From Sinonovacula constricta (lineage: Eukaryota > Mollusca > Bivalvia > Cardiida > Solecurtidae), in contig CM017558.1 in the NCBI GenBank assembly GCA_007844125.1, forward strand, positions 29,025,264-29,089,263: a stretch of 64,000 nucleotides of DNA, written 5' to 3'. How positions within the stretch are numbered: position 1 is the stretch's first letter; every line of letters begins with the position of its first letter. Position numbers and translations under genes: made by a program. The notes beneath the pieces are model-generated. The model saw only the letters and a program-made list of their open reading frames with translations, did not search any database and was not told where the DNA came from. Of this stretch, positions 14,806 through 62,985 are shown one piece after another.

Positions 14806-15958
14806 TTCAAATGATGCAATTATCGTTTATTGCTGTATCGAAATACTGAAAGTTTGTCAACCAAAGCCTAAAAGAGCGTTCGGAAAAAAGCAAATAGTTT
14901 CTCTACCTTATATGTGCGGGATAATCCATTGGGATTATGACTCCTTAACGGGGCGTGCGTCGTTCGAATCTCGGCCGGGTTCCCGATAATTTCATTGAGT
15001 TAAAAATGCTTGAATTGTTTCACTTTCGCAGATCTATAAATGAGTCATGTGAGTGTTGTTCGAGAAATGCACATAACTTGCCAGTTGTATATGTCTAACT
15101 GCCGATACGGGATTTATGTATATACCAAATGGCCAGTAGGTACAACTGTAGAGTCTACTGAATATGACATTGTTACAAAAGTAGACAATGTACAAGACTT
15201 TTACTTTTACTTTATGCTCAAGCTTATACGTCTATTTAAATATTAAATCTGCATTTATACATTTTAAACATACATTCTTCCCCTATGAAATTCCCTTATG
15301 GAACGCACCACTAGCTAGAATTTAAGATCTGACAACTGTAGAGCAGTTTAAAACCGATATAGGGGACATCGAATTACATGAACAGGAAATAGTTTGTTTA
15401 AACTGTTTGTAAATCGTTTTTACCTTTATAAAACACAATACACTGTCGCACACGCAACTTTACAAATGATTGGAAGTACGCAGAGTGTGGTTTTATACAG
15501 GTTACGAAAAAAAAGTTGTGTGCGTTTGCCTTTCATGACCTTAACTGAAATCAGTTAAAACATTTAATCTAACGTTGATAACACTTATCAGACGCCATTA
15601 CATAAAGAAAACGACACGTCCTAAAATAAGCATTTTAAACACTTTAGTAAGTAGCCGTACCATTGTATTCCCTGACTTCTTGTGATGCAGTCCTGTACGT
15701 CGAGACTCTAGTGTATCTAAACATATAAATACATGTATTTGCTTGTTTTACCTTAAATGTTAATCCAAATGGCAATGGTACGTTGTGTTTTGGGCAACTT
15801 ACTGATTTAACTAGATAGTTTGTACGACGATGGTATGATAGTAGTTATAACAATAATACAAGGGACTGGGTCGATTATTGCACTAATGCTCTGGCAATAA
15901 TAGTCCTTACGAGTTGTCGTTGATACACTTTTAGCGAGAACATTTATGTGGTCGTTAG

Positions 15959-16135
15959 GTCAGACGAATGGCTTCACGCTGACTATTGGCAACAACATTT
16001 ACCAGGACAGCCCGACCAACAGTCCATCCGACTATCTACCTTGGACACTGGACTTAGAACAACCTGTGACTGGAAATACTGTCAAGTTAAACAGATCAGG
16101 AATTTTGACACTTTGCGAAGTAATTGTGTATGCTG
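15959..16135 (+). CDS. Gene A: C-terminal half of F5/8C or F-type-lectin-like domain
   Basis: 177 nt, phase 1-1, acceptor TTAG and donor GTAAGT. It reads QTNGFTLTIG, LPWTLDLEQP and ends LCEVIVYAG, the usual last strand of this fold. It is one codon shorter than the gene B exon at 54294-54473. The N-terminal half of the domain is not found upstream. Confidence 0.85.
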
Positions 16136-20780: not shown

Positions 20781-20876
<96 letters not shown>

Positions 20877-23800: not shown

Positions 23801-24380
23801 GAAAAGAACTGACATTTTCATTGTGTTATTTTTAATTGTTAAATATAACTATTTCTTATAGTCGAATACCTCTATGCACGGGCATGAATTTCGTGTATTA
23901 CAGTGGAATGTCAGATCATGTAGGGGAGGAGCAGTAGCGGTGAATTTAAATGTTTCCGTTTTCAATCCATTTGAAACTGTTGATGGTGGGAAAAAAAGAA
24001 TAACAGGTTAGTGTTGATATAGATAAATGTTATCATACTCGGCCCAAAATTCAGAAAGCACTCGGCAGAGCCTCTGTATCAACACTAACCTTGTATTCTC
24101 TATGTATCAAATACCCTGTTAACTGCAATTATTATAATATTGTACTATTTTCACAAAAAAAAGATAATTAGAAATTTATCAGTCGAACAATTTTGTGATA
24201 TACTTTAAGTTTTTATACAGAACGTATTTGTTAAGACCATAAATGCCGTTTACAATTATGGATGACTGAAAACAGAAAACTGAGTGTGTAAATGTGGACA
24301 ATATCCAAGGGGGTAATTCAATAAGAGTGCAGTCAGATGACAATGGGTTTCCAATATGGTATGGTGTCTGTGAGAGACAG

Positions 24381-24446
<66 letters not shown>

Positions 24447-33970: not shown

Positions 33971-34025
33971 ATGAAGCTAGTGACTTCTTTAAGTATTGTG
34001 TTGCTTGTAGAATATGCTATTTCGC
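33971..34025 (+). CDS. Gene B exon 1: signal peptide
   Basis: 55 nt: MKLVTSLSIVLLVEYAIS, then one base and donor GTAAGT. The hydrophobic leader fits a signal peptide. An earlier ATG at 33961 is out of frame and gives no leader. Confidence 0.85.
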
Positions 34026-37000
34026 GTAAGTACGTATATTAATTTATTTAAAACTACCACCTCCGTAGCTTCTTAATTAAATGTTCCAGCTTAATTTTTT
34101 GTTCTTTTAATATACAAACACATGTTATTGTTGATGATGATGTCGTCATTGTAGATGACGATTATGATCATTATAATGATGATGATGATGATGATGATGA
34201 TGACGATGATGCTGCTGCTGCTTCTGATGATGATGATAATGAGGATGATGATGATGATGATTTTAATGATAATGATGGTGATGATGCTAAAGATAATGAT
34301 GATGATGATTATTATTATTATAATGATGATGATGATGATGATGATGACGACGACGATGCTGCTGCTTCTGCTTCTAATGATGATGGTGATGATGATCATG
34401 ATTTTAATAATGACGATGATGATGATGATGATAATGATGATTATGAGGAGAAGCAGGATGATGATGATAATGATAATGATGCTGATGATGCTGATCATGA
34501 TGATGATGATGATGATGATAATAATAATGACTATAGGCTGTCCTCCCAGCGACTATTATCCCATTCCATCATTCGGTGAGAACTGCAGATATCGATGCCA
34601 CTGTGCGGCTGATGTTCAGTGCCACAATGTAACAGGAAATTGTCCAGGGCCATGTGCTCGCGGGTGGATGGGACCGGCATGCCAGTACAGTACGTACAAC
34701 TATATTATTTCGAAATATATCTTCTACAAGGAAGGTGATTAGTCTAAAGCGATAACGTGTTTCTAATTTATACTGTCACATAACCAAAGAGTTCGTTTTA
34801 CATATTCAAAATAGTCCGGTTCCATCTCTTTGCCTTATAAGAGTAAGACGGCTCCAGATTGAGATAACATTCTTCATTATGTATAAGATATGAAATACAG
34901 GTAAAACTTGAAATTTTAAGTGACATATCGATTCCTATTGAGTCTAACCCTATACCTAAACGCTAAACAATTTGCAATGTGCAATATTCGCATATGTATT
35001 ATTTATGCAATGAAGACTGTTGGTAAAGAATAATACCAACCCTGTGTATGACAAAATATAATATTTCGATTTCTTAGAGGGGTACAGTCCATTGGTATAG
35101 AGCAATATCTAAAAGTTCGAGTGCGAAGTTTCTTGGATCCAGACATTACTCTTAAACTGTTTCATTCGAACAATAGGTATAAATGGAAAACAAAAACATG
35201 GTACAAGCCTCTATAATCCGAAAGAGTAATGTCTTGAACGTTTAGGAGTAGTAGATAGAAAAGCAGTTAACGTTTTTAAAAACCATATGAAGGTTAATGT
35301 GTACTTAATTCAAATATTTTTCTTGAATTTAAGTTTTAGTTCTTAAAACGTATAAATATTAGTAATTGTAGCGCAGGTATGTTTTTGTCTACGTAACGCG
35401 TGAAAAAGGATATATTATACGGTATTATAGGCTTGTAGCCTTCCGTTCCTGGAGTCCGTTTGTAAAAAAGATGCATCTTGACAAACATTGACTCGGTTTA
35501 GTTAATAGTTTCATGATTTAATGCTGTGTGTTTAAAGCAAGACCAACAAGGAAGCAGGGCGGTAAAACTTATTTATTACATGCTTACTCACCGTAAAACA
35601 TTTGATAAGAAGATTGTACTCTTTACCACGAAATAATGTGTAAGTCAACACCATTGTGATACGATGCTTGTTGATCCTGAAGGTCTCCGGCATGTATCCC
35701 TTTTTGCAAGTTATCGATATGTGTATTTACATCCTGTTGTAAGTGTGCATCGAAAATAAGGCTACAAAAGAGGCATGAAATGACAGAGAGCATATGGATT
35801 AATAGCTAACAGCAGAAATGTTGCATTGTTGCACTCAAGTCTTATAAGCATTGCGACATATAACAACATTCGAAAAAGCGCATGGCAATCCAGATGTAAA
35901 ATTAAGAGTAAATCTGTGATGAATCTTTAAACAAATAGAACACACCCAAAATTACTGCCTATGAACGTTAGGCAGCAAAAGTAAGAGAGTTAGTGCTTAA
36001 AGTGGGTTTACAGAGCGCTAACCTCGTATATTCTAGTGCATTTTTCAAGTGCAAGCACTAAGGGAGAATGGATTTATTTTAATTAAAAATGGTCCAAGCA
36101 CTGACGTATCCTTAAAAAAACTTTGATGTCATGACAAGAACATTAAAACTGTTTATTTGTTATTTAGGGGAGAAAATGTATTCTTTTTTACAGGAGAACT
36201 ACAGAAAATGATGGTGAATGAAATAAAAATTTTGAATCGAAAAAGAAAGACCTGTGTAAATGGTTGTAGCATTCTGTTCATGAGTAGATGGATATGAGGA
36301 ACCAAAGCCGAATGTCCATCAAGTAATTATGCAAGTATCGGTCGTTATTGGATTCATTTGAATGACAGCATAGATTACATGCGCGGGGAGATTTTTTACG
36401 ACAGTCACATAAACAATTTATTATATAATAAATTTATGATATGGAGAAAAGTAACTGAATAATTACACGTACAAGTAAATGGTGCATCTTAATGCTAGCA
36501 AATATCGCAGTTGTCATTTGATATTGTATTTAACAGGAAAGTGTCGGGGTCATATGCCCTCAATTGCATGGGGTATGCCAGTACAGTATGTTTATGTATA
36601 ACATTTTGAACTATCTATCCCTCTGTAAAAGTGAAGCCTTGTGATCATAAGTAGCGACTGAAACTAAATAATGACCATAATAACATAAAGATTAACCGTA
36701 TACAACCATTTATTTCACGAAAAGATAATGATTTTAGATTGCAGATACATATAACAACTGAACTGGAAAATGATATATCAGGTTACCGTGTGTATAGATG
36801 CCCAAATCTAAACGCTACACACTTTGAAATTCATATTCATGCACTTATATAACTTAGCTTTATGCCTTAAGGGTAAAAAAATTAAAATAAATATTTAAAA
36901 ATATAACTGTTTAATAACAATACCAATCTTGTAAAAAAGAAGGGCTCTCAGAAATATGTGCAGATAGTTTTAAGCACGTTGATTCAGTGTCAAATAAAGA

Positions 37001-40000
37001 AGGCTGCACAAGTATACCTTGAAGGTTCACCTTTAATAGATATTACCTGCAATTAGGCTATACCATTGCAATATGTGAAGTACATACGTTGTTCTATTAA
37101 TTGTCGCTTTCTTTTAACTTATGAAAACTATAAAACATGGAACACTTTAAAGAAAAACTCTGCCTCCCCGAACAGTACATTCAAAATGATACACAGTAAT
37201 AAATGTTGTAAGGGCACATGCAAGAAGCAAATTTAATCGCAGTTTCCAATAACCAACCTAGGGCGTATATTTACCTTTCGAGCTGGTGTTATTTCCTTAC
37301 ACGACAAACATCGTTAGATTTAAAAGCATACAAATGTGATAATTTCCTTGAAGTACTTAGGTTTCTTCTGTATAAGGATACATCCTTCAAAAGTATTATT
37401 AAGCGTACTAGACTTGTTGTCTACGTCAAACGTGAAAGTGACTGTATCATGAAAATTCCGAATCAATCTTATTGTTTTGTTTTCATTTTTTATAATTTTA
37501 AAAGGCAATTATGCAGATAAAGTTAAAGTTATATATTACGTCTTATATGATAACGTCTTATATGACAGCTTAACGATTCTACAAACAGTCGAACAGACGT
37601 CTGTGTATAATGATAATATATATAATATATACTTATGACCTTTAACAGTCTGAACCAGGCAGATTAATATTTGCTGATGAAATTCTTGAAAAATAAACGA
37701 AAGGAACGTAACTACCTGTTTGCTTGCTTGTTGTTAATGTTGCTTTGTTGTTGTAGTTGTTGCTTTTTGTTTGATGTTGGGCTTATCTTCCAGTCATTTG
37801 CACTGTAGTTTTCTGGAGATCTGGAATGTGCATTTGAATCTGCTAAATGTATAACGATATCCTAACTGTGTACAGCATACCGTGAACATCTAGCATAATA
37901 CCACATTCTTGTAAAATAACCTGTCATCGGAGAGAATGGTACTTGAGCTGCCCTTATAGTTGTTTGATCGTAATCAAGAATCTAAATCACTAAAGTTTTA
38001 ACGACCTTAGTGTGTGGCACACAGGGCTTGATCCTGAAGTCGAATCTTTTAGGAGAAACAAGCCTTATGACCAGAATTGGCTTGGCTCATTTACTTGTTT
38101 ACATATTAAAATATTATTATGTCAGGTTAAGAACACCTCCAATGAAACCGGACGTTAAATTTATTTTATTATGTGTTTGCTTTACTAATTAAATACACAT
38201 CCTAATGCAGCAAAACATAATCATTCAAAATCACTGCCATAAAAGGTCGCCAAAAGAGAGTTCGGTTCAGTAAGCACCCACAGTATACTTGTTCGGTTAT
38301 CTTCGGGGTATTTCGGTAGAAATCGGAAACCTCCGGGACTAGTCGTAAGAACACGTAAAACCGCCAGGTGACACTGTATACGTGAATTGGGTCTTATAAA
38401 ACGCGAAATCCTTCTGTGCTGACTCAATCGACTGTTTAGTGCGCTTCAATTAACACATCGCTCTTAAATAAATGACCAGGTTTTCGAACAAATAAAATTA
38501 AGTTTGCGCAAATTTTCCTTTCGAGAAAGGACTGAATTTGGTCTCTGACTTCGTGCTGCCTGTGTTCCAAGGCGGTAACCATCATCAGGGTGCTATATTC
38601 TTTTGAGTGTCGGCTTAGGTAACCGTATTGTGGCATACACGGTAGTGGTTCTGGTAAATCTCTCTGTGAGCGATTATTCACGTCATGTCGGCTTAGTCGA
38701 TTCACCCTCATCTAATCCAATATGCCTGGGACAGAGGGTCTATTACTATGTCTCCAATCCAAAGGATGCACAATCTGGGAAGATGATTCAGGGCTCACTA
38801 TGAAAACTATGTCTATACTCATTGGTTGAAATAAACGATGTATATCTTATAAACCCAACATAAATGTTCATTTATCATAAGATAAAGGGTAGGGAAGGAT
38901 AATTGTCACTGGCTACGCCTAAACTCGACGGAGCTCTGTGGCATACGCTGCATGAATGTATACTGTAGACTCAGGAAGGGGCCTCACACGCGTTCGTGTT
39001 TGGAGTGTCGAATGACGTCTATATAAGATTATACCTCTGTAGTCCCTGTGGATGCATCACAGAGCAAGGCCGCGCTTCGAAAGAGTGGTTTATGGATGTT
39101 TCTCGACTCTCCACCATTCCATTTTTAAAGAAAGAACGTGCGCGCCGCACCGAACTTGCATATACTGCAGCCTCCAGTCGGTGAGACCACTCATTGAAAC
39201 TTTATTTAGAGAAGTACAGTCAGCACATACGTGTATATTCACTGAAAAAGGTCTCATGCGGATATAGCGAAATCATTGAAAAAGCAAAACCTTCAGTGAG
39301 AAGCACGTGTTGCCCGTTTAACCAAGATCGAAGGTAACGTTAAGCTGTTCTGCATTGACAGCATTTGCCAATCTAGTGTCGACGAATACCCCAAAGGCAT
39401 TCTAGATAACGGCGAGGTATAAACCAGATGTTGCAAAGCGGGCGCTGCTCATGCGGAATGGCGTGTACCCCTATAAGTACATGGACAGCTGGGATCGTTT
39501 GGCGAAGAACGCTAACCACCACCGGAATCCTTCTTGCGTACATTGGTATGCTCAGACGACTTTAGCCCCTTAGAGAAGGCATGGGAGAGGTCGACGCTAA
39601 ATTACTATCATGGTCTATACAGTCGCACTGACATCCTGCTGCTGACCGACATCTTCGAGGCATTCCATGCATGTGGCAGTACGTCAAAGGATCCTGCGGA
39701 TTACTACATGAGTTTCGGCATGTCCTGGGTACCCTCTTCAAGACAACGGAAATTGGGCTCTCTGACTACGACACCTTTCCATCGAAAATGGTCTCAGTTG
39801 CCGGGTCTCGTTAGTATCAAAGTGCTACGCCCGGGCACATGGGTTCAGAAGCTGCAATCCAGAGCAGCCCACAAGCCATATCCTGTACTTGGATGCTAAC
39901 AAGCTATACGCCTGCCAGTAATTATATCGGGGCTAACTCGACCGAGGGCATGATTCTTTACCTCGAATATCCGAAGGAGCTACACGATGGGCAAAACTCG

Positions 40001-46000: not shown

Positions 46001-49000
46001 CAACCGTTAAGCTGTCGTGAGCGTCGTCGGGTGTGCATTCACCCAATGTGTGAATCCAGAGTTCAAACACTTACAAGTGGGAACTAGGTCTCTCAATTAA
46101 ACGACAATCGCGATCATGCGATCACTGTTGTTCTTGATTTAAAATGAGTTCCTTTGGAGGTCGTGCTGGCGTTCGGGAGCCAAGTGCTTATCTCTCTTAT
46201 TATGCCAAATGCTCATATGTTGATAGTAGAGTATAGAAGTTAGCAGCACTTACCTTCTCTGGGTACGTTTAGGTACGTCAGGGAAACGCCAATTGGTGGC
46301 TTCGATATTGGGGGGAAATTGAGCCAAAACCGGAATTTTACAGATGCACACTCCGTACAGGTTCTTCAACAAAATGTTTCTGATATAAAAGAAAACGTTG
46401 TTCGAATTGGCGCAACCAATTCTATGAAAGGCCACTTGAATCTCAATGGACAACGGATCGAAGCCGATCCCCACATTTTGACCAATGCTGCCAATAAGCA
46501 TTACGTCGACAAAAGCCTTTGCCGGCTATTACAGTCACCGCGGAGGAACTTTGGTCTCTAACAGGCGATCGATTCCAATGGAGATTTGGATCAATTTCTG
46601 ATACGATGGCCACAAAATGAAAACTATCGATATGGCACTCTCCGCCCCAAACACAAATGAGCAATCAATAGACAAGGTCAATGCTAGAATTAGTGTCGAC
46701 GGCGAAATCAAAGTTATGTACGAAATACTTAAGGAACCAGGAAAACTCTGTGTGGTGATAACATTCCAACAGCCACTAGAACTCCAGTCGGATGACATTA
46801 TCAATTTTATTACTCGGGATTGGCAGGTAACACGAGAGCAGCAATAGTTGTTTTCATTTATGGACTAGAATTATAAAAGCTCATACATAAGACCATGAAA
46901 GAAGCCTCCGCGACGCATAGATTATATCCCTCTTTGCCGGCCATCTACGGCAACGGACAGGCTCCAGTCGATTGTGCGCATTCACGCTAGCTACGTCTGG
47001 GGCTAAAAAAGGGCTGACCTCTACAAGGAAAACATGCGTAACGTCGATGCATAAACGGCGCTGACGCAGTGTTGACTAGAATCGTTGCTGCTTTAAGCAT
47101 TGGTGGTCTTGGGCATCATCCAGTGGCGCTTTCTCGTCTCTCCACTTGATGTGGTGACAAATATGATGAACAAGTTTTCGCAGCAGGAAAACTCACACAG
47201 AATTCAACAAGACAATTGAGTAAGCCCAGAAACATATTCCCAGCTTCGAGCACAAATGCGCATCTTTTGGACTGGAGATATAATAATAGACTTTCTATCT
47301 CATGCATTTCGGCTAACCGGTGGTGATGCGACTAGGCCGAAGTGAGAAATAAATGCTCACATAGCTCTCAGTGATGTTTGTGCCAGAACACCAACTGTAA
47401 TACTGTGCTGTAAAAGGCAAGTATCAGAGTTTCTGCTTCAATGAGACAGCCTCAGCTTATCGGTATCTCAGCCCAGTTTAAGAACGAAAGGATAATATCA
47501 GACAATCAGTGTACATTCTTGAGCAGTGTATATATTGTGTAGGTTAGCTGATTGTGTTTGTTCTACATAAATTATTCTTACAATTTTGTAATAATCAGTT
47601 TGTATATGTTATCACCGTAGTACCGTGCTTGGCGCGAATGACGACAAAGTCTATATATTTAACATTAAGCATTTAAGCTTCAATAGTTTTTGCATATCTT
47701 AAAAGGCCGTGCGCGTTACTCTTACAAGCATTATAATCCTTATCAATCAAACAGTCAAAGAGACCGTCTAGCTTTAATTAAATACGGTGAAATATAAACG
47801 TTGACCTTTGACCTTGATGCACCAAAATTTATTTTACAGCGTTTGACGTAAAGCAGTAGAATGAGTTGTTTTAGTAGAAGTACTGGATATATTTGATAAA
47901 GGTTGTTATTTTGAGGGCTTTTTTCTAGAAAAGTTACAGAGGGGCTCTTTATATTTGCAGGAAATGTGGCACTCAATGCTACTAGCGTTATACAAAATGG
48001 AGTAAATGTCAACCCAGAAGCGGTCAACGACGGAAATTTGACGACGTGCAGTGATCTCAGACCATCTAATAACAGCAATGAACATTTCTGGCGAATTGAG
48101 CTCAGCAGACCTTTCTACATAGTCGGCCTTATCGTCCATACACTGTCAAGAGGTAAATATATTATCTTTAGTTTTTCAAACACCTGTATACTCCTGTCCC
48201 TCGAACACCTTTGGGGTTGATATTCTTCTTCGGTCAAACCGGGAGCTCGAGACAATGAGAAAATAATATTACGGCAAGTTCGTCAGTATTGATAAACGAC
48301 TGCAATAGTAAACCAGTGCGTTTATTTGTCTCAAGGCGTTGTTTATATCACGTTTAAACACGTTCCGGTTTAGTTTATGTGCGGAAAATTATAATATTCT
48401 TTGACTCACAAAATTTACCTCCGTCTGTCTTTATTTGTCTTTAATTTTAGTAGTAACTTGTCTTCAAAGTAAAAATAAAAGCGGCAAAAGTTTTTAAAAT
48501 TTTAGACCATATAAATCAATAATGTTTTTAATGTGTACTTGTTTTAAAATGCATTTTTCAGTCAACCAAGTTGCTTATATAAATTGTAGTTAGAATTACT
48601 TAAATGCTTAAAACAAGAAAAAAAAAACATTTAACATCGTCCAATACAACAATTAATCAATTAAGCATAAAGGTGGGATATTTTAGTGCCCGCCTTGTAA
48701 CTGACACATGTGTTGTATTTTTTTTCAAAATCTGGCTTATAATTCCTTTATATGTATGCACACAATTACACAATGAAATAAATTACAAATTGGCCCGTAT
48801 ATTGAAAGCAGTGTTAAATAATTTAAATTTGAAGGTCGTATCATTCGATTGTTCTGAAAATGGCGTCAATGTTTCTAATGGCACTGTTTTATGAAACCGG
48901 ACAGAAGAACTGTTTTCATTCATAATTCATTAAAAGACAAGTTTGTCTATTATGGTCCATTTAGGTACTTCCTGTATAAGGGCTGACATTTTGTTGGAAC

Positions 49001-52000
49001 ATCCTTATGGCTCAGATTAAGTTTATTTTTCATCAAAAATTTCACATATATATGTAAACTAACAAACGATAATTGACAATATATGCCATTTACATGGCAG
49101 TTACCTTTACCTATTTAATCATGGTTGCCGAACCTGTTCAGTCATTATTAAAGTGCCTTGTAATTTTACATGAAATGCGTTTTTACAGGACAATCAACAA
49201 CAGTTAGGATTGAGACTGCCGATGTGATTAATTTTTCAATTGGAACACAAACATGTGTCAAAGCATTTACAATTGTGGAAAATGGGAGGACTGAGGTCAT
49301 ATGCCGACAAGCAGTCGTGGCACGGGCTCTGCAGTTTGTGAACCAAGGAAACCGAAGCACAATGTCACTCTGTGAACTTGAAATCTATGGCGGTAGGCAC
49401 GTGATTAGCAGTTTGTAATCAATAACGAGTGCAGATTATACTTTCTAAATATACAAACATTTATTAAATATAGGATGAATGAAATTTTAATGAAAGTTTA
49501 TCCTTTATCCTAAAACTAAATTGTTAGGTATTAAATGTGTAGACCCAATTAAGACTGTACCAGGAAAACTCTTTTCCTTTCTTACATATAACGTGGGCAT
49601 TCCTATTGCATCATACATAGATACACGTTCTACTAAGTCGTCGAATGCTTTTGGCTAAAAAGTTTAACCAATGTCCAACGTTTTAATTTCTTCAAAATTA
49701 AAGTACTACACTGGGTCAGATTCTTTATAAAATAAGTATCAACAAATTAACGAGACAAATACATGGATATGTGAATGCATTAGCCACTTTCGAAAAACAA
49801 TATTTGAACGACTAACTGAGCCAAATGAATCTGTGATATATCTCAATGTCCAGACATTGGTCAATGTTAAGACAAAACATAACTAACACTCATCACGGCA
49901 GTAGAAAGTGTGTACATGCCGTTTGCATGGTTGAGGTGCCGTACACACAATGACTTACATGGGTGACTTAGCCCCGACAATAAACATCCATAAAACACTT
50001 GAACGCATTTTGAAGGAAGTTGACAATCTAACCATATGCAAGAATAAATAACACATTGCCTTATGAGATATTTCTTACGTAAAACTTGTTTTTTTTTCTC
50101 AATGATTCAAAGCTGCATTGGCACGTGTAACATTATGATTGAATTGTAGGGTTTCTTTTACTAGGTCGACACGTTTCGTTTAACAAGAACACATCGCAAG
50201 ATTCTACAATAAGGTATGATAATGTGGACTGGTACTCCCGTTTGGCTGTGGACGGCACTGGCGCATGGAACGGTAGCTACGGTCTTACATGTTCCGCAAC
50301 CACTAACAGTGAAGGAAACAAATGGTGGCAGTTGAACTTAGGGACCACCTACATAATTGAAGATGTTTTCATCTTCGGTCGAAGTGATAATCTAGGTAAG
50401 CGTATTTGATATTTAAATTTTCGACTGGATCTACACGTAAAGAATATATAATTTAGATTCTGTCTACTTTACATATTTGTATCTATGGTTGCATACACAT
50501 GTAAAAACCAGCTATATAGTCTGGTTAAATATGACAACAGAAGCCTTTTTCAATATGTCTGTGTAAATAAGTCTACTGATAAAACACAGGACTCCGGATC
50601 AAGGGGACATTGTTTGAGCGTTGGCAGGACCGTCGCTAATGCTATGAGAAAAGGAAATCTTAGTTGAATTGTTCCACTCAGCCCTGATGGAACAATTAGT
50701 ACCTGCGAAGATCGTTCGGGCCATGCATATGCCTTTCGAGCGCAATATATCTCCGCTGCTGAAAGGGAACTTAAGAATTTACCAAGTTATCCGGGTTAAC
50801 ATTGGCATTAGTTAAGGAGAAATGTCGTTAATGCGACGGGCCAACGTCGACGCAAAAAATGAACCATTTAAACACATTAAATCAATATAGTAACAGTAAA
50901 TAAAGTAAAAAATATATATTTGGAAGGTTATGGAATGTTTGCTCCCTCGATTATGGATTACACCGTCTAGAGGTATGAGAGTTGTATTTCAGATGCTCTG
51001 AACCGAATGTTAGTGCTGTTCCTTTTGTCCGAATATGAGCTATATTTTAAAAGAGGAGTTTTGGCTGTATACATTGCTTCTTTCCAATTTCCTGTGCGTT
51101 GTACATTTGGTTTACTACTGATTAATTATGATCATTGTTTTCGCACCTATAATCGTGTACAGGCTAAACTAACACCATCCAACATCGCTTTTGAGGGCTA
51201 TGAATATTGGAAAGTATAATATAAATCTCAAGGAAAACTGCATAATGATCTTTCTTGAGAAAATAGAATGGCTTAAAACAAAATAAAAAGCAAAACCCGA
51301 CACAATTTAGTAGGTATTCCTAAATATTACATATGTAGATGAAGAAACAAAAGTTCAGCCATCATAACAATTAACTATCAATTTAAAGTGTACAAGCAGA
51401 AATTGAACATGTACAGCATGCTCACATTACACAATTCATTAATGTTTAGGTAGTATTCTTCTGGAACATGGTTGGCCTTGTATTTCTAATTAATTTTTTT
51501 TCAAAGTGGTTTTGAATAGAAGCATTTTGGTATCTTGATTATCTGCAAAAAGAACAGTCTTCATTATTTCCTGAACTTAACATAATTCACACATACTTCA
51601 CACATACTTCATACATACTCAGTGAAATGGATGAAGATTGAGAGAAACAATAAAAACAGAACTGTCTGTTATATTCTCAATTCCGATGCAACCAATATTG
51701 TAACAAAGCAATGTTATTACGGAAGGATGCCCTACTGGCGTGTATATTTAAAACCTTAACTGATAGCAAGAATAAAATTTAATAAACGTTGCTGTCAAGT
51801 GAAATGTAGTAAGTCATTCAGTAGACACTCGAATTGCGTCAAATTGCGTATTATGAAAAGGAATATGCCAATTGTCTCCTATATGGATACTGCTATTTTA
51901 TAATTATTCGTGTAAGGAAGCAATAATTAGTCTGAACATATTCTGTGTTCAGCAAAATGTTCACGTAATAAAGTTTTGGACAAGGAGCAAATTATCATAT

Positions 52001-55000
52001 CAGGTCTATGGTTTGAACCCAAGACCCTCCTATCCCGAGTCCGTTATCCTTTTGACAAAGAACACATCAACCATGTTATAATTTTTTGTTATGCTGAACA
52101 ATTGATTTAACGTTTCTGCAATTGAACTGATTGTCCGCATCTTAAATGGTATCCTTTTGAAAACTTGTCGATACAAGACTAGAGATTGAGTTTGGAATCC
52201 TCCGATAGAGAGTTCAAAAACATCTCTTGTTTTTTGCGCGGACCTTACAGAAATCGTTTATGTATATTGTGCCAATCTTTCAACGTTGTCTAAGCATTGC
52301 ATCTAAAGTCAGACTTTACCGACATGCTCAATGGAATCTTCAGAACAAGTTTTTTTTTCTGGTTATGGACTGTTCTGGTGCTATTAAATACTCTCAATTT
52401 GTTAACAAGCGGTTTGAACCTCGAAGGACACATAGAATAGCATTCATATCTAATTTTCTCTGTAAATAAAGCTTTGGTATTTTCAATAACATGAAGAATA
52501 AACCTGAATTTCCTGTTTTATGCCATGTTTGTTAGAAAGATACATACACACAATTATTAAATAATAAATAAAAAAATATAATTATGTTTTCGAATAAGGA
52601 CTCCGTTTACAAAACACATACTTTCCTCATGTGCGAATTTTAGTAAGAATTCCATATATAGGTGTCGCGCTCCATCACAGCGTCAATGAATCAGTCGTTA
52701 CCTTTAAAGCTTACTTGAGAACAACGTGTTCAAGATGAGCTTTTCTGATCTCTCTTCGTCCGTCGTTTGGCGAGCTGCGTCAGCAATTCTAGAGGCTTCA
52801 GTTTCTATCCACTCTTACCTTACTTGGTCAGAATATGTGTCTGCACAAACAATTTCAAGAGTTTATGACTGGGTCAGGTGAGATTAAAAACTCTATCACT
52901 AGGTCAAACTTTAGACAGAAAAATATGTCCTCACAACAGAGGCCACATTTATGGCACAATCTCCACTAACATTGGCCAGAATGTTAGCCTGCATGAAATC
53001 TTGGTATAATTAATTACGGGATGACCTTTGCTTATGGTATTTGAGCAAGGTTTGTGCAGAAAGCTCATAATTTAGTCTATGCTTACAGATTTTCTACTGT
53101 ATCTCGATTTTAGGCAGTAAAACTCGTTAATCAGCACTTAAAGTATGCATTCTTTTTTAAACCTACAAAATAATAATAACGATTGGGATTGCTCCTAAAA
53201 TAGACTTCAACATCACAGCCGATGTCGTGATTGAGCAAACACATATGTGGCCACGTGAATTTCTTAGTTTAAAAATAGGTAACTGGCTCAGATATGAAAT
53301 ACATTTTTGTAATGACGATAATGTCGTTATGGTTAACTTTTCACACAGCCGCAGGACACCAATTACCAACATTTAGCGGGATCTGTACAGGTAGCATTTA
53401 TTTGGCTGTTTAAATGAAATGAAATGAACATGTGTTTTTGATCCAAACTGTCGTCTACCACCTTTTAAGAACAAATGCAGATTCAAGAATACTCCAAACA
53501 GGTCCCCTTGTCTATATTGAAATACAAAAACTTGAAAGCCGACTGGACCGTGGAGCATCTTTTTTCAAAAGGGTACGTGTAATGGTCATGATAAGTCACA
53601 TACCTGTCTATAATTCGGTTATTTTTATGTTCAAAAAGAAATTGGCAATAACATGTTCCTTAGAAGAAAAACAGACTATGGAATGCTTATGTGAAACTAA
53701 AATGATGCAATTATAGTTTATTTCTGTATCGGAATACTGAAATTCTGCCTTCCAAAGCCTAAAAGCGCCTTCGCGAAATGCCTAAAGAATCTCGGCCAGG
53801 TGCCCGATAATTTAATTGAGGAATAAAGCATCTTGACCTGTGTCAAGTCCGCAGGGGTAAAATGGTTATATGCGAAGGTTGTTCGAGAAATGCACATAAT
53901 TTCCTAGCTGTATATATCTCAGCTGCTGATACGGGACTCATGTTTATTAATAGTAATTGCCTTTTTTAGCACACAATACACTGTTAAGCCGCACCCGCAA
54001 CTCTACAAATAATTGACAGTACAGAGAGTGTGTTTTAAGATAGGTTATGAAGAAGAGGTTATGTGCGCTGGCATTTTATGACTTTAATTGTACAAACATT
54101 TGATCTAACGTTGATAACAGTTACCAGAAGCCATTACATAAAGACAATAGCACATCCTAAAATAAGCAATTTTAAAATATTCAATAGGTAGTAATAACTG
54201 GTAGTGGGTCGATTATTGCACTAATACTCTGGCCATATTGGTCTTTACGAATTGTCTTGATACTCTTCACTAAGGCAATTATGTGTTTGCTAGGTGTGAC
54301 ACGTGGCTTCACTTTGACTATTGGTGAGAACAACACTTACCAGGATACCCCTAACAACAGTCAATCTGACTATCTACCTTGGACACTGGACTTAGAACAG
54401 CCTGTGGCTGGAAATACTGTCAAGTTAAACAGATCAAGACTTTTGGTACTTTGCGAAGTAATTGTGTATGCTGGTAAGCGCACTTTTGCACATAAGCATA
54501 GCCATACAAGTACAAATACCATAATTAAGAAAATTACGCAAGTTATTTATTAGCATATTCTGAAATGTATTATTATACTTAATTAAGTCTCGTACTGTTC
54601 TGTACTATGTTGACTACAGAATTGAGGTGGCAGTGTTTTGGAACATATTATAAAGCTAAATTACAACCTTAATCTTGTTACAAAACGACATATATGAACA
54701 AAACATATAACATTTTCTGGCTTGTATTGTGTACTTATTTATGCTTGTATGGTGGACTTATTTATATGTGTCTATGTTATTTAAACTGTCATCATAAGGA
54801 CAAGATACCACTGTTGCTTGTACTGTAATTTTAATTTGACTTTAACTATCATCACATATTAAAATAAATGATGGTATCATGCATTTACAATATATACAGC
54901 TTAGAGTATTCTATTTTGATGTATTCGTTGCTAATTCCTAGTACTCTATGTAGGCATGGTTGTATTGAATTTTAAACAATAAATTTATTTACAGAATGTA

Positions 55001-58000
55001 TGCCCGGCTGGTGTGGCTGGGAGTGCAGTGATGTATGTATGTGTAACACCCCGCATACTGGTTCCCCAAGATTGAGAGCAGTGTGCTCCTTTGGTTGTCA
55101 AGATGGGTGGTCTGGAACCAATGGGCGGTGTGACAAAGGTATGAATATTTTATGTATGAATCTAGGTATCAAAAGATGTATCATTACTTCAAGACTTGTG
55201 TTCATACTACGGATTAAAGTGGTATGGCTTGACGAATATAATACCAGCGGCAACATTTTCCTTCAGTATTGAATCAGTCTATTTAACGAAATTAAACATA
55301 TTTTACATATTTCTTTTCAAATGCATTGCACATGGTTACACGGCGGTAGATGGTCCATCGGCTTATAAAATTATGATGTCTACATTCTTGCCAAATGCCC
55401 ATAAACGTACAAGCGATTTATAATACTATAGTATTGTTGTATTAAACACTAGTTATCGAAGTTCCAAATTATGTTTAATCGTCATCTAAAAGTTTATTTG
55501 GATGTAGATTTTAAGTACAATAAACGAAAGACGTGACTGTTAACCCTAGCATATACTGCTCTTTATGATCCAAACAATGTATCGAGTATTGAAAAGAAAA
55601 GTATTAGTTCCGGGATTTAACGGAAAATATGTCTTGTGTTGTTTAACTTTCTCAGGAAGAGCCCGAACAAAATATGTGATTTTGCTAATTTGCTTAATAC
55701 TAAACCGTTCAATTTGTTATTAATTTACATAGTTTAATTTTGACGTAAGACGTTGCACTTTATCCTATGCCGTTATTAACTTGTTCTTATTATACGTCAT
55801 CTCTTTTACTTTTTTCTTTCATACTACTAGATCATTTGGAATAGTTAGGTGATCGAGGCTGTTTACCGTACATATTGTACATGTGTTAATAGTTTGTTAT
55901 GATAATGAGTTTCTTGTGTTGTTGTTTTTGCATATCCCTTTCTTTTATCAGTTTTAACTCCTGATTCAGGGCCTAGTTTTTAGTTGCATCACTTTGATGG
56001 AATAGTACTAGTTAGAAAACCAAGTTTAAGCATCCATGTGTGGGTCCGTTTGCAGAATTATCGTTCCAAAGCGGTCACTGCTGTTTTTGCTTTGTGTCTG
56101 TGATATTTCCTCTTTGCGTTTTCTGTCACTTTTACTTTTACTTCGACTTTGAAGAAGTGTGCACATATTTTATAACTGTGGTATTTCTTATAGGACCGTT
56201 TATTTTTTTTCCATTCATAGCTTATATCCGTAATTAGATTTGATATCGATATCCAATTAATGTTGATTTAATTCTCATTTATAATTTGCTGTATACCTCG
56301 TCAGTTTCAACAAGTACACGTACTTGCCGTTTTCCAGGCGGCCAGCTATGTTTCTTTTCAAAGATACGTAATTTACCTGTTTTTCTAGATTTGCTTAAAC
56401 AGGTGATATTAAACTATAATTAATTATACGATGAACATGATACCAAACATGTTCATTGAATGACTGTAAATGAGCTTGCTACTGATTAAAAAGTATCTTA
56501 TGCGTTTGATTCCTTTAAAATAAAAGCAAGCTCTAATAAATAATAGGTTTAACTATAATGTACTTTACTTAATGGCACCAATATGCAGCCTTGAACATAT
56601 ATTATTAGTTCAATATAAATTGATTTAAAAAGCGATTATAAATAATGTATACACAAGAAGTGTTAACTATATGACAACAAATTAATCAATGAATAAAAAT
56701 ATATTGAAATTCCTGCGCTACTATATATCATATGAGGTTCGTCCATTTTTCAACAAAAGGTACTTCCCACATCGCGATATTAAAGGCTTTTAAAATGGAG
56801 TTATGTTTCATGAAATGCCTGCTTGTCATAAATGTGTTATATGAAGCTCATTTAGTAAGTATTTCTTTCTCCAGCTTGCAATGAAGGATGGTTTGGTCAT
56901 AACTGTTCAGCAAAATGCGGAAACTGCCAAGGGGGTGGAGCCAATTGTAATCACGTGACAGGGGTGTGTTCTGAAGGTTGTCTCCCTGGTTACAACAGCA
57001 GTGATGCCAAATGCATGCAAGGTACATTTCAGAAAAGCATAAATCGCAGACGTTTCATACAGATATACTTATGTTCACAATATCATTTAAGAACGGTTTT
57101 TACCCATAGAGAATATTAATATTCTATTGCAAAGATGTAGCAATAACAGAAAGTTATTGATACAATAAGGGAATGTGTCACGTTCTTTTGGTTTAGGTGG
57201 ATAATAAAGATTGTTATTGCATATATGTGTATTCATATTGATAGCAGGACTTTTGTATATCCAATACGTTTGTACACACAAGTCATACTTAATTATTCTT
57301 TGCCGGAAAATTAAGGTTGTTTAATCATTCTTAATGAATGTCAACGGGGGTTTTGTTTTTGAAATAAATGGTATATTGCAAACTTTTAAAATATAACAAC
57401 TTACTAGAAGTCATAGATGCAAAAAGAATTAATGTTTACAATATGTGAACACTTTTTTCAACCATTCCTTTAGAACACCGAGAGAGAGATAGAAAGAAAG
57501 AACAAAGCCTAAAAGTAGCTAAGATATCACAGTAGTATTATGGTTTATAACCTATAACTTTATAACATTTTAAAATGTGACGCTTGATAAATTATACGTG
57601 TAAAGTCTATTAGGTATGCAGTTATGACTAATAGGTAAATATATTTTATGTATTGTTGCTTAAAGTTTCAGAAAAGTTGAGAAAACTGTTTTAGCATAAT
57701 TAGGCATTCCGTTTAGTTTATTTGTAAATCCTATTTAAGCCCAGGTAGGCATACAGTTTCAAACTATTGGATACTGTAGTTGGTGATATAGTTAAAGCCA
57801 ATTAGGTATTCAGCATAGTTTTAGCATAGTTGGGCATTATACCTTTAGCTTTGTTTGATCGACCTGGACGGCTATTGTTCTTGCTACCTGCTTGGACACT
57901 TGCTTAACGTCAGATTAAAACAACTATTGTTGATCGCAAATATTGATATATGTTAACGTATACACATTTTTAAGACGTTCTTTTTTAGTGATTTGAACTA

Positions 58001-60838: not shown

Positions 60839-60893
<55 letters not shown>

Positions 60894-62985
60894 TAAAGAG
60901 AGAGAATTTATAAGTTTGAAGGTGAACCTTGTATACATACTCGGAATGAGTTTTAGCCAAGTTGGCACTTACATTAAGTTTTTTTGACATACAGTTTCAA
61001 GTCATTTAAGCAGGCAAGTTTAGTTTAATAAGGGTTGCAGCTTCTTCCGTTTTGAGTCTGCAATTCCAACAGGTGGCCATGCAGTTTGAGGCATTTAGAG
61101 GATACTGTTTTTGGACTTGGTTGACATTAAGTATTAACCTAGTTGGGAAATTCGTTTCAGCGTTGCTGGGCACATAGTCTAAGCCTAGTTGTGTATGTGC
61201 TAATGTATGTGCATCTAGGGTCCATAATTAGTTTCTCCTGTCACAACCTTTTAGCATGAATTAACACGAAAGTGACGGAAACCATGACAATTACTACCAT
61301 TTAAAACTGACTTAACGTTGTATTGCTTAAAGCATTTAAAATCCTTAACTTTCTGTCTATCTCTGTCCCTCTGTGTGTCTCTCTATGCCTCTTTTTGACT
61401 CTCTCTGTCTCTCTATCTCTGCTAGAAGTGAATGTGCTAACACTGAAACATTGACTTGTAATTAGTTAGTATTCTCAAAAAAATAAAAAACAGTTCCACA
61501 AAATGCATTGATATAAACTCAAAGTACATGCAAATAAATTACAACAATTCAGTTCGATGTCTCTTCATAACAGCAGAACTGACTGGGAGAACAATTATTT
61601 TGCACAGCAATTCCTGCATAAGCACTTTCTTTAATCAGCATAATGCCTGTCCCTATTAGCTGATCACAATTCTCACAAAACCAAATCAGCCAATCAGAGA
61701 TTTTCTATTAATATTTTCTCAACAACTGAACCTGTTTATTGCGAATTATTAAATATACCCTTGCATGTTTATCAGCTTAAACCGTTTGTTAGACAAAAAT
61801 GAAATCACATGTAATGATTCGCTTATATTCTAAGGTATGTACAGTGTATATTGTGTCGTTTTCCAGCTGTCCAATGCCCTTTTCACACCTATGGACGTGA
61901 CTGCAGTCCATGTGGTCCCTGTAAGAACGGGTTATGTGACCCAGTCTCCGGAGAGTGTTCATTTGGTTGCTATGACGGATATGTTGGCAAAAAATGTGAG
62001 ACGATAATCACAAACACTGAAGTATCGGTCGGAGGATTGACCGGAACTGGTATTGGTGTGGGTGTTGGTGTGGGTGTTGCCAGCACGTTACTTGTTGTCG
62101 GAATGATAGTTGCTGTATTTTGGGCAAAGAAACGGAGGTAATGTTAAAGGTTTGACAGCAAATACTTATTGTTCTATTTACAGACGTAGAATATGATCAA
62201 CTGTTATTAGCAAATGATATATGAATATTAAACTGTGTTTAAAATAAGATGGTCTTTCTTACACCTGTCTGCCGATGTATATGTTAATTCACAATCAACA
62301 TGAGGTTTCTCAAGCACCCTCATCAAGATTGTAATCATGTCAAACTAAATACGTCTTGATGTTGATCTTTCAGAAACCATATTTACGAAGAACCTATCGT
62401 GAGATTGACAAGAGAACAAGCCGGGGAGTCTGCTTATGCTTCATTACATGGTCAGAGAAATCAAAGCGGTAAAATTGTGTTGTGTAAATCTAAACTAACA
62501 TAATATGTATGTTTACACATTTTTATTAAACATACAATATAGCATTTAATATCTGCAACTTATTTCAAATGCATAACCCTGATATTTTGTTGCATTATTA
62601 GCATTAGCAGATTTAATTGTTAATAGTTAAATTGACATGCCTAAGTTACCCCAAAAATATACCAAATTGCCATTGGCAAATACAGTTATTTGTTGGCTTT
62701 AATTAAATAACTAAATCACATATTAGTGCCATATCTGAGTAAAAGGTAATTGGTATTATGGTTTTCATAGTTGTATTTCTTTTTCTACTACCGATAAGTT
62801 AGACCTTATTTTTGTATAAAAGTTTAGATCAGTTGTTTAATTGAGAAGAAAATATGTATATATAACACATTTTTCATTTGGGTATAAATAACACACACAT
62901 AATTTTCGCATTGTGCTGTTTATGTTTATTTGCAGTGGATATCAGTGGGAAATTACAAGAGTACGAAAATACAATGGACATGTAA
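33971..62985 (+). CDS. Receptor gene B: signal peptide, EGF, two lectin-like domains, EGFs, TM, tyrosine tail
   Basis: Join of 33971-34025, 34537-34689, 47961-48152, 49189-49392, 50165-50395, 54294-54473, 54995-55138, 56875-57021, 61867-62137, 62374-62468 and 62936-62985. The 11 exons total 1722 nt, giving 573 residues plus TAA. Domains: leader 1-18; EGF-like 20-69; first F5/8C or F-type-lectin-like domain 70-202; second 203-338; EGF units 339-386 and 387-435; juxtamembrane EGF 439-479; Gly-rich transmembrane helix about 497-521; tail 522-573 with Tyr530 (YEEP), Tyr547 (SAYASL) and Tyr567 (YENT). It is probably a surface receptor that binds ligand or glycan outside and recruits SH2 proteins inside; the role is inferred from domains. 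The canonical fucose-binding H..RxD motif was not seen in either lectin-like domain, so fucose binding is unproven. Intron 2 is 13.3 kb and contains Polinton remains. All splice phases fit. Confidence 0.85.
34131..34530. repeat. (GAT)n-rich trinucleotide repeat abutting exon 2
   Basis: About 400 bases of GAT, GAC, GCT and AAT triplets running up to the acceptor of exon 2. The intron end is therefore purine-rich and lacks a normal polypyrimidine tract. Confidence 0.95.
34537..34689 (+). CDS. Gene B exon 2: first EGF-like unit
   Basis: 153 nt, phase 1-1, acceptor ACTATAG, donor GTACGT. CPPSDYYPIPSFGENC, CHCAADVQCHNVTGNC, GWMGPACQY. It is followed by the 13.3-kb intron. Confidence 0.85.
34690..37714. 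other. Gene B intron 2, left part
   Basis: AT-rich; no exon recognised other than the EGF fragment at 36534-36590. ORFs of up to 100 codons near 37218-37520 have no family features. Confidence 0.45.
36534..36590 (+). pseudogene. Fragment of EGF exon 2
   Basis: The run CAGGAAAGTGTCGGGGTCAT with GCCAGTACAGTATG following resembles the end of exon 2 plus its donor (34636-34692), with several bases deleted. It is a leftover of a partial tandem duplication. Confidence 0.55.
37715..38070 (-). repeat. Degenerate copy of the SINE
   Basis: The same order of blocks as 19880-20200 is recognisable (GGGCTTATC, GTTTTCTGGAGAT, GTGTACAGCATACCGTGAAC, TAATACCACA), with many substitutions. This is an older insertion. 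Confidence 0.65.
39320..41060 (+). pseudogene. Polinton protein-primed DNA polymerase B, inactivated
   Basis: Family blocks appear in the correct order across shifting frames: KLFCIDS (about 39341), LMRNGVYPYKYMDSWDRL (about 39448), GLYSRTDILLLTDIFEAF (about 39610, exonuclease-side block), HILYLDANKLYACQ (39877-39918, motif A region), LEYPKELHDGQNSYPLA (about 39962), PIYVGVSIF..LSKSLMYDLYYN (about 40498), LLYIHTDSLLLKI (40589-40627, motif C), IAKYFGIRPKIYVILE (40764-40811), and LFDSKRWIYEGGVNTLADG at the C-terminus (about 40996). Stops and frameshifts separate them. In motif C the first catalytic Asp of the Y-x-D-T-D-S core reads His, so the product would be dead even if reassembled. Confidence 0.85.
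41061..43125. other. Middle of the Polinton remnant, genes not identified
   Basis: Several short ORFs (for example 41149-41343, 41348-41575, 42496-42756 and 42723-42983) have ordinary composition but match no Polinton product I can name. They may be decayed protease, ATPase or accessory genes. Confidence 0.35.
43126..44010 (-). pseudogene. Polinton major capsid protein, inactivated
   Basis: On the minus strand three collinear pieces of the hexon-like capsid family can be read. The first, about 43985-43690, includes QQLLVRLPNLGSHDVIV and VVQNLGRAIVKKTMINISG, then VNDSDTMSYG. The second, about 43395-43270, reads ITLQGIPSPLYSLG and YQQWDEARKFF. The C-terminal piece ends YLFVVMNTQLNLENGRLALV and then a stop at 43126-43128. 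Frameshifts join them and the middle is partly lost. The + strand ORF at 43703-44215 is the shadow of this gene. The family match is by motif memory and is not a search result. Confidence 0.75.
44562..44864 (+). other. Polinton-region ORF, unidentified
   Basis: A 100-codon open frame starting MAFEDIEMEIIERVSSELSE, charged and probably helical. It sits between the capsid remnant and the fibre-like ORFs. It may be a piece of a Polinton accessory gene. No family was recognised. Confidence 0.3.
44865..46318. other. Polinton remnant, unassigned stretch
   Basis: ORFs at 45174-45455 (-) and 45754-45945 (+) carry no motif I can name. The region may hold decayed minor capsid sequence. Confidence 0.3.
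46319..46850 (+). pseudogene. Fibre/tail-like Polinton protein fragment
   Basis: Two ORFs separated by a frame break. The first reads MKGHLNLNGQRIEADP then TNAANKHYVDKS, a form of the G-x-L-x-M-N-x-x-R-I ... A-A-x-K-x-Y-V-D motif of phage-tail-like and Polinton structural proteins. The second (46617 onward) reads NARISVDGEIKVMYEI and is possibly the distal domain. The role is inferred from the motif. Confidence 0.5.
46851..47960. other. Right end of Polinton remnant and end of gene B intron 2
   Basis: GC-richer broken frames continue to about 47340. The sequence then returns to the AT-rich host type up to the exon 3 acceptor (ATATTTGCAG, 47951-47960). Confidence 0.4.
47961..48152 (+). CDS. 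Gene B exon 3: first lectin-like domain, N-terminal half
   Basis: 192 nt, phase 1-1, donor GTAAAT. NVALNATSVIQNG, AVNDGNLTTCSDL, FWRIELSRPFYIVGLIVHTL follow the order of F5/8C and F-type lectin domains (N-V-A-L-x; A-V-D-G-N; W-x-x-D-L). Confidence 0.85.
48153..49188. other. Gene B intron 3
   Basis: AT-rich. The ORF at 48604-48894 has no recognisable feature. Confidence 0.5.
49189..49392 (+). CDS. Gene B exon 4: first lectin-like domain, C-terminal half
   Basis: 204 nt, phase 1-1, acceptor TTTTTACAG, donor GTAGGC. TVRIETADVINFSIG, CVKAFTIVENGRTEVIC, ending LCELEIYGG, the typical last strand. Confidence 0.87.
49393..50164. other. Gene B intron 4
   Basis: Nothing recognised. Confidence 0.5.
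50165..50395 (+). CDS. Gene B exon 5: second lectin-like domain, N-terminal half
   Basis: 231 nt, phase 1-1, acceptor TTTTACTAG, donor GTAAGC. HVSFNKNTSQDST, SRLAVDGTGAWNGSYGLTC, WWQLNLGTTYIIEDVFIFGR. W-W-x-L-x-L and A-V-D-G are the family landmarks. Confidence 0.88.
50396..52734. other. Gene B intron 5, left part
   Basis: AT-rich with chance ORFs. Homology to unit A starts near 52556. A short ACTTCACACAT tandem repeat lies near 51595-51620. Confidence 0.45.
52735..53075 (-). repeat. Interspersed repeat inserted in unit B only
   Basis: GTTCAAGATGAGCTTTTCTG with TCCGTCGTTTGGCGAGC downstream, then TTACTTGGTCAGAATATGTG, resembles a repeat common in bivalve genomes. Unit A lacks it at the corresponding point (near 13930). 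Family naming is from memory. Confidence 0.5.
53076..54293. other. Gene B intron 5, right part
   Basis: Aligns with 13950-15958. No exon was seen. Confidence 0.5.
54294..54473 (+). CDS. Gene B exon 6: second lectin-like domain, C-terminal half
   Basis: 180 nt, phase 1-1, acceptor TTTGCTAG, donor GTAAGC. GFTLTIGENNTYQDTP, LPWTLDLEQPVAGNTVKLNR, LCEVIVYAG. Paralogue of 15959-16135. Confidence 0.88.
54995..55138 (+). CDS. Gene B exon 7: EGF-like unit
   Basis: 144 nt, phase 1-1. CMPGWCGWECSDVCMCN then VCSFGCQDGWSGTNGRC. Paralogue of 16407-16550. Confidence 0.89.
55139..56874. other. Gene B intron 7
   Basis: The right part aligns with the gene A intron before 17160. The left part (about 55150-56310) holds extra sequence with no counterpart in A, including a weakly R1-like stretch near 56020-56150. 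No exon was seen. Confidence 0.45.
56875..57021 (+). CDS. Gene B exon 8: hybrid EGF-like unit
   Basis: 147 nt, phase 1-1. The upstream intron and the first two thirds (CNEGWFGHNC, NCNHVTGVC) match gene A exon at 17160. The end (SEGCLPGYN, AKCMQ) and the following intron match gene A exon at 18164. It therefore looks like a fusion of two EGF exons. Confidence 0.9.
57022..61866. other. Gene B intron 8
   Basis: Aligns with the gene A intron after 18310, jumps at about 58032 from the A sequence near 19113 to that near 21566, then follows A to the transmembrane exon. It contains the decayed orphan ORF (59673 onward), an (AG)n tract and a CT-rich tract (61353-61422). No exon was seen. Confidence 0.55.
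60839..60906. repeat. (AG)n microsatellite
   Basis: Paralogue of 24384-24445, interrupted by AAAG and ATAAAG. Confidence 0.95.
61867..62137 (+). CDS. Gene B exon 9: juxtamembrane EGF plus transmembrane helix
   Basis: 271 nt, phase 1 to 2. Residues 437-525: CPFHTYGRDCSPCGPC to KKCE, a linker, then a Gly-Val repeat and VASTLLVVGMIVAVFW with basic AKKRR. Confidence 0.93.
62374..62468 (+). CDS. Gene B exon 10: cytoplasmic tail
   Basis: 95 nt, phase 2 to 1. NHIYEEPIVRLTREQ then AGESAYASLHGQRNQS. Tyr530 and Tyr547 are conserved with gene A. Confidence 0.9.
62936..62985 (+). CDS. Gene B exon 11: terminal exon
   Basis: 50 nt ending TAA: VDISGKLQEYENTMDM. Tyr567 in a Y-x-N context. Confidence 0.88.

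Follow-up and report, generated by a model that had tools for sequence, protein, structure and literature searches.

An F5/8C- and EGF-like receptor gene array of Sinonovacula constricta as a possible paired-receptor-like system of bivalves

Introduction

The receptors of the Draper/CED-1/MEGF10 type are characterised by an N-terminal EMI domain, an EGF-rich ectodomain and a tyrosine-based cytoplasmic tail carrying ITAM and NPxY motifs. Another well-described organisation is that of the vertebrate paired receptors, e.g., CEACAM1/CEACAM3, which form clustered families where similar ectodomains sit on tails of opposite kinds (accessible parts of PMC5112662 and PMC3533184). As for molluscs, the discussion of an oyster study states that dozens of receptors of the Draper family and over 40 receptor-type PTPs are more highly expressed in circulatory agranulocytes, and several MEGF-type transcripts were assigned there to an efferocytosis pathway; in the accessible part of that paper, no connection by ectodomain is drawn between the Draper-family receptors and the receptor-type PTPs (PMC13070813). 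An expanded PTP-like gene family of 13 genes is mentioned in the accessible text of the Mercenaria genome paper (PMC8905726), and mollusc F-type lectin (FTL) isoforms are described as gamete-recognition molecules in what is available of a review on these lectins (PMC5712786). Among the literature matches listed, in several cases the best 10-20, to which subscription papers mostly do not belong, neither a molluscan paired-receptor family nor the present gene family was found.

Respective to these systems, the gene considered here resembles Draper/CED-1/MEGF10 by its probably EGF-rich ectodomain and its tyrosine-based tail, but differs by the lack of EMI and NPxY and by the presence of two lectin-like domains; membership of the Draper/MEGF10 group was ruled out for want of both EMI and NPxY. 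Where vertebrate paired receptors are built from Ig domains, the bivalve genes would use lectin and EGF modules, and the tail proposed as opposing would itself be a phosphatase.

Gene structure and coding constraint

The window, i.e., the whole stretch of 64,000 nucleotides analysed, corresponds to C4:29025264-29089263 in a genome searched over 1.22 Gb. The window gene was rebuilt from 11 exons at 33971-62985 (+), giving 1722 nt with the stop codon and a product of 573 aa, with GT-AG borders at 10/10 introns and phases 1,1,1,1,1,1,1,1,2,1; the 11-exon model of the preliminary description, which totalled 1722 nt with consistent phases, was reproduced exactly. Its features are as follows, in window coordinates:

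33971..34025, +, exon 1, hydrophobic leader MKLVTSLSIVLLVEYAIS, the leader being judged by eye
34154..34530, +, (GAT)n microsatellite immediately 5' of the exon-2 acceptor
34537..34689, +, exon 2, first EGF-like module; gene model, C115 copy, pN/pS 0.13
47961..48152, +, exon 3, first half of lectin-like domain 1; exons 3 and 4 together match FBP32, E 3.9e-6
49189..49392, +, exon 4, second half of lectin-like domain 1; matches FBP32 together with exon 3
50165..50395, +, exon 5, first half of lectin-like domain 2; Pfam and solved-structure matches
54294..54473, +, exon 6, second half of lectin-like domain 2; Pfam and solved-structure matches
54995..55138, +, exon 7, Cys-rich EGF-like module, without Pfam match by itself
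56875..57021, +, exon 8, EGF-like module, without Pfam match by itself
61867..62137, +, exon 9, comprising an EGF-like module, the Gly-rich juxtamembrane stretch and the membrane helix
62374..62468, +, exon 10, YEEP- and SAYASL-bearing part of the cytoplasmic tail, both motifs in 9/9 copies
62936..62985, +, exon 11, end of the tail with YENT, and stop codon; gene model, C115 copy

A second copy of this gene is present on contig C115 of the same assembly (72025-100630), where 11/11 exons occur in the same order, with all splice sites intact and the reading frame free of premature stops. The two copies differ at 11/1722 nt, corresponding to four synonymous and six amino-acid-changing codons, and 7.66 kb at their 3' end align at 99.0%. 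The C115 copy is probably the other haplotype of the window gene, the alternative reading being a recent duplicate. Pooled over paralog pairs, which are non-independent, pN/pS stays under 1 in all exons (range 0.13 to 0.86), namely 0.13 for exon 2, 0.57 for exon 3, 0.32-0.40 for exons 4-9, and 0.66, 0.83 and 0.86 for the short exons 10, 11 and leader exon, respectively. Exon 2 and exons 4-9 show clear coding constraint, which is weak in the short leader exon and in exons 10-11; since the pairs are non-independent and exons 10-11 short, constraint on the tail is read from its retained motifs and not from the ratio. The C115 copy, the homologs and the coding constraint together rule out chance open reading frames as the source of the gene. 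The window gene is thus real and intact and encodes a probable cell-surface receptor, so that the complete receptor initially described, with leader, EGF, two lectin-like domains, further EGFs, transmembrane segment and three-tyrosine tail, is supported as a type-I membrane receptor gene.

A GAT-rich tract precedes the exon-2 acceptor in 7/7 complete copies inspected, and the pyrimidine stretch present at this acceptor in some other copies is missing from the window gene, the C115 copy and the next gene on C4; lacking such a tract, the splicing of exon 2 could be weak. Intron 2 is filled by a GC-richer block (window ~36000-48000, GC 0.39-0.44 versus ~0.32-0.36 elsewhere), 10 ORFs from which gave no Pfam match and in which no inverted repeats >=30 were detected; it is perhaps a decayed mobile element, the resemblance to a mobile-element polymerase seen by eye being unproven. 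Searched against Rfam, the window gave no match at the gathering score.

Lectin-like domains and EGF modules

Against Pfam, the window protein returned PF22633 (E 3.2e-10, 40.9 bits for a cut-off of 27.8) and PF00754 (E 2.7e-8, 34.4 bits for a cut-off of 28.2), and thereby scores, as a sequence-level prediction, above the cut-off of the F5/8 type C / NedA-like galactose-binding profiles, while neither a PTP domain (PF00102) nor, at E up to 10, an EMI domain was returned. Compared with solved structures, lectin-like domain 1 alone matches the F-type lectin FBP32 (3cqo, E 3.9e-6), and lectin-like domain 2 matches 2j22 (6.6e-8), 3cqo (4e-5) and 1k12 (0.0056). The profile search that had been proposed as a check on the lectin-like reading therefore returned a lectin-like match, from both Pfam families as well as from solved F-type lectins.

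The fucose-binding motif, taken as HX24RXDX4(R/K), is absent from both domains of the window protein and from the lectin pieces of four relatives, loosened spacing included; in a fish lectin used as control, the loosened pattern matched and the strict one did not. In domain 2 (exon 5), the His of the motif is replaced by Ala and the RxD is retained. A classical fucose lectin is ruled out by the missing motif, and for the same reason the term F-type lectin is limited to the level of sequence and fold: to this extent the F-type-lectin-like domains proposed earlier stand, without the fucose-binding motif. Regarding the fold, the AlphaFold model of the Mercenaria relative P0001 is poor (mean pLDDT 53.2), so the evidence was taken instead from the oyster relative P0005 (mean pLDDT 79.5), where an F-type fold was observed in a comparison that speaks to the families in its match list.

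None of the EGF modules of the window protein reaches the Pfam cut-off, the best being EGF_laminin (E 0.0012, 19.3 bits for a cut-off of 21), and their assignment consequently rests on cysteine spacing and relatives, which both agree with EGF. Taken as a separate piece, the EGF stalk gave no match among solved structures at E up to 1.

Cytoplasmic tail

Among tyrosine-based signalling motifs, i.e., ITAM and ITIM, the ITIM consensus is (S/I/V/L)xYxx(I/V/L), while YxN is regarded as Grb2-type and YxxP as Crk-type. The tail of the window protein comprises ~52 residues with three tyrosines, and contains all of the motifs YEEP, SAYASL and YENT listed in the preliminary description. In the 9/9 tail copies read, YE[EV]P, SAYAS[LI] and YENT are all retained; a genome search with exon 10 gave 11 matches, every one located on C4 or C115, of which nine close ones are these copies and two are weak (56%, E 0.22). 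When the window tail is shuffled, an ITIM arises in 10%, YxN in 16% and YxxP in 6% of cases, and all three together in 0.1%; single tail motifs are not rare by chance in this composition, which applies to SAYASL as well, matching the ITIM consensus and kept as SAYAS[LI] in 9/9 copies for a chance of 10% in shuffles. Neither ITAM nor NPxY occurs in the window tail, the first tyrosine being that of YEEP and the tail therefore not an ITAM. As it combines ITIM-type and adaptor-type motifs without ITAM, in a family whose remaining short tails are for the most part ITAM-like, this tail may belong to an inhibitory or adaptor-recruiting branch.

Relatives among bivalves

The clams Mercenaria and Mactra provide the top two protein matches of the window protein. 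The protein of Mercenaria mercenaria LOC123556299 (P0001) aligns lengthwise with 37% identity and exhibits a like arrangement, i.e., EGF, two F5/8C-type domains, EGFs, helix and short Tyr tail, but with one EGF fewer in the alignment and an ITAM-type YNTL ... YSEL in place of YEEP/SAYASL. The domain order, at first considered unlike that of known receptors, is thus also found in this clam, one EGF aside. More broadly, bivalve records named draper-like, MEGF10-like or receptor-type PTP have parts in common with the window protein, and the window gene is accordingly a member of an expanded and poorly characterised bivalve receptor family, not a lone novelty.

The oyster draper-like and MEGF10-like proteins (P0003, P0005, P0006 and others) share with it a lectin-like domain, an EGF stalk and a helix, as well as a tail with three tyrosines, SxYxxL and often YxN; they are unlike it in that a single N-terminal lectin domain precedes the EGFs, that a leading EGF is missing and that most have a true ITAM pattern. 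The bivalve receptor-type PTPs (P0002, P0012, P0022, P0029) equally combine lectin-like and EGF modules and reach 57-61% identity with short-tailed relatives but, unlike the window gene, have a cytoplasmic phosphatase domain replacing the Tyr tail.

Tandem array and mosaic neighbour

A genome search with the window protein gave at least 77 exon matches at E up to 0.01, and all but three of the exon matches listed fall on C4 or C115. Complete exon sets occur in two neighbours, one being the gene that follows on C4 and the other the gene preceding the second copy on C115; in a third neighbour, on C115, exon 5 was not detected. A further paralog lies upstream of the window gene, without any exon 3-5 match upstream of it within the window:

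15958..26512 (window), +, upstream paralog, exons 6-11, with five exon-8-type EGF exons

Exon-8-type EGF exons number five to eight in four neighbours (one with a stop), for a single one in the window gene and its C115 copy. Debris is present in the array: on C115, one exon 3 and one exon-8 copy contain an in-frame stop. At window positions 3290-3439 and 3742-3798, the minus strand carries exons 2 and 1 of a further family copy in inverted orientation (92% and 79%); with AT at the place of the AG acceptor seen in the exon 2 of other copies, this is probably a broken fragment. About 2 kb from these receptor-gene fragments, an intact single-exon ORF (window 219-1286, +) encodes a family-11 glycosyltransferase of the alpha-1,2-fucosyltransferase type (PF01531, E 1.4e-36); the adjoining of a fucosyltransferase and F-type-lectin-like receptors may be due to chance.

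The genes that follow the window gene on C4 and its second copy on C115 are unlike each other in exons 3-7, so that the array may vary between haplotypes. In another part of C4 (28.19-28.29 Mb, minus strand), array stretches match C115 at 98.4-99.7% over 3.2-3.3 kb in 3/3 pairs compared, and part of the array may hence be in the assembly twice.

Synonymous divergence between the window gene and its downstream neighbour amounts to 0.07-0.10 in exons 1-2, rises to 0.45-0.74 in exons 3-7, and is 0.10-0.14 in exons 9-10 and 0.31 in exon 11 (16 codons). Pooling the ends versus the middle gives ~18/140 versus 130/215 synonymous sites (Fisher p 5e-20, from rounded counts). The surrounding DNA of the same pair aligns over 2.68 kb at 90.6% around exons 1-2 and over 2.08 kb at 83% around exons 9-11, for just two pieces of ~207 nt around exons 3-5 (75% and 69%) and pieces of 69-283 nt around exons 6-8. 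The downstream gene is a mosaic, with common leader and tail ends and a diverged lectin core, for which the simplest cause is recombination or gene conversion. This strong mosaic concerns one gene pair; a mild trend is seen for the gene before the C115 copy (0.06-0.07 in exons 1-3, 0.17-0.24 in exons 4-7 and 0.00-0.09 in exons 9-11), and no consistent pattern of synonymous divergence for the gene after it.

Two tail types on similar ectodomains

PTP exons occur in the same C4 region, e.g., at 28165135 (-), 28327112 (-) and 28986828 (+). One PTP-tailed paralog can be delineated as follows, its exons 2-5 being placed by search matches:

C4:28972162 and C4:28976659, +, PTP-tailed paralog, genome search matches to exon 2 (85%) and exon 5 (68%), respectively
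C4:28.985-28.987 Mb, +, PTP exons of the PTP-tailed paralog

Within 15 kb 3' of these two matches are found an EGF exon (~40% identical to the exon-9 EGF), a membrane helix and the PTP exons, with a PTP active-site signature that spans an exon junction, as judged by eye; in the 8 kb carrying the PTP exons, no match to the exon-9 helix or to tail exons 10-11 was obtained. A minus-strand trio on C4 (28341477, 28336851 and 28327112) matches the plus-strand set of exon 2, exon 5 and PTP, and is perhaps a haplotypic duplicate. Genome-wide, PTP-domain exons amount to at least 172 matches, many of them clustered on C2, C16 and C17.

Among 29 homologs, 15 possess a clear membrane helix followed by a short non-PTP tail, with the ITAM consensus in 11/15, a PTP is carried by 5/29, and 8/29 either break off after the helix or show no clear helix; in P0028, the end of the tail resembles the start of a PTP. 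When tails were shuffled (n=11, the window tail and 10 homologs), an ITAM arose in 0.5-3.7%. In Crassostrea virginica, P0005 with an ITAM tail and P0029 with a PTP, the latter a predicted protein without clear membrane helix, are 57% identical over 351 ectodomain residues. P0020, with a YxxL tail, and P0022, with a PTP, are 61% identical over 522 columns and come out as sisters in the tree with a support of 100/100, this pair spanning two Mytilus species, i.e., M. coruscus and M. galloprovincialis. In the tree of 23 rows, where branches are long, 5/20 inner branches are starred as firm and P0028 is labelled PTP from its tail end, the five PTP-labelled rows need five changes, at least three of them forced by starred branches, and these rows form one group in 0/200 bootstrap trees. 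In this tree, PTP tails do not constitute one clade, and by these alignments similar ectodomains occur with either tail type in bivalves. The combination typical of paired receptors, namely similar ectodomains, two kinds of tails and linked genes, is found here, with the reservations attached to each comparison. New here are the PTP-tailed paralog in the same array, the two tail classes on similar bivalve ectodomains, and the mosaic downstream gene.

Discussion

The array looks like an invertebrate version of the activating/inhibitory paired receptors of vertebrates. The reading we favour, at somewhat better than even odds (about 0.55), is that of a paired-receptor-like innate recognition system, in which the window gene encodes a type-I receptor, the PTP-tailed members would act in opposition and lectin cores would be exchanged; the immune or phagocytic role of the window receptor is itself an inference. 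Mechanistically, the pair of lectin-like domains would bind a surface ligand (glycan or lipid), probably not via the classical fucose site, and receptor clustering would lead a Src-family kinase to phosphorylate the tail, where an SH2 phosphatase or kinase could dock at SAYASL, a Grb2/Drk-type adaptor at YENT and a Crk/Nck-type adaptor at YEEP. Such docking would steer haemocyte engulfment or activation, whereas PTP-tailed members with similar ectodomains would remove phosphates and so oppose the Tyr-tailed receptors, and recombination would exchange lectin cores between common leader and tail ends. A broader proposal, decidedly more tentative, the more so as the strong mosaic concerns a single gene pair, is that bivalves possess a large germline paired-receptor system with F-type-lectin/EGF ectodomains, whose tandem arrays would swap lectin cassettes by recombination in phase-1 introns, between common leader and tail ends, and join them to tyrosine-motif (ITAM/ITIM-like) or phosphatase tails, members of the two tail classes with matching cassettes sharing ligands and opposing each other in haemocytes.

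Different accounts of the same genes have to be weighed. An engulfment receptor of the Draper/MEGF10 type and nothing more, binding to dying cells or microbes and initiating phagocytosis, the PTP-tailed relatives being separate and non-opposing adhesion phosphatases, is the most serious of them although on balance unlikely: it would account for the many relatives annotated as draper-like or MEGF10-like, for the 11/15 ITAM-like short tails and for the oyster MEGF-type transcripts placed in efferocytosis (PMC13070813, accessible part), but sits poorly with similar ectodomains on either tail, with PTP tails outside a single clade, and with a window tail having neither ITAM nor NPxY in a protein for which EMI is not reported at E up to 10. 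The single exon-8-type EGF of the window gene, for five to eight in four neighbours, would together with the exon-2 acceptor devoid of a pyrimidine tract and the debris nearby (the inverted exon 1-2 fragment with its AT acceptor and the C115 exons with in-frame stops) suit a decaying, non-functional member of a birth-and-death array; against two gene copies that are fully open, with intact splice sites and six amino acids apart, such decay is very improbable.

In oysters, F-type lectins act in gamete recognition, and large polymorphic families are known as well. A self-recognition or adhesion receptor acting outside immunity, e.g., in gametes, larval settlement or shell-forming tissue, would be in line with the naming of mollusc FTL isoforms as gamete-recognition molecules (PMC5712786, accessible part), and the differences between the C4 and C115 arrays fit any such role; the conserved Tyr motifs of the tail and the haemocyte expression of relatives, as reported in the accessible part of PMC13070813, nonetheless fit an immune signalling receptor better, and this account is improbable.

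Under the paired-receptor-like reading, the array touches upon the open question of how animals devoid of antibodies keep recognition both diverse and restrained. If true, it would give a meaning to the many bivalve genes filed as draper-like, MEGF10-like or receptor-type PTP, and the genes described above, together with matched proteins such as oyster P0005 and P0029, make the idea directly testable. Should both tail classes bind the same ligands, bivalves would possess a counterpart to the vertebrate paired receptors that is independent of them.
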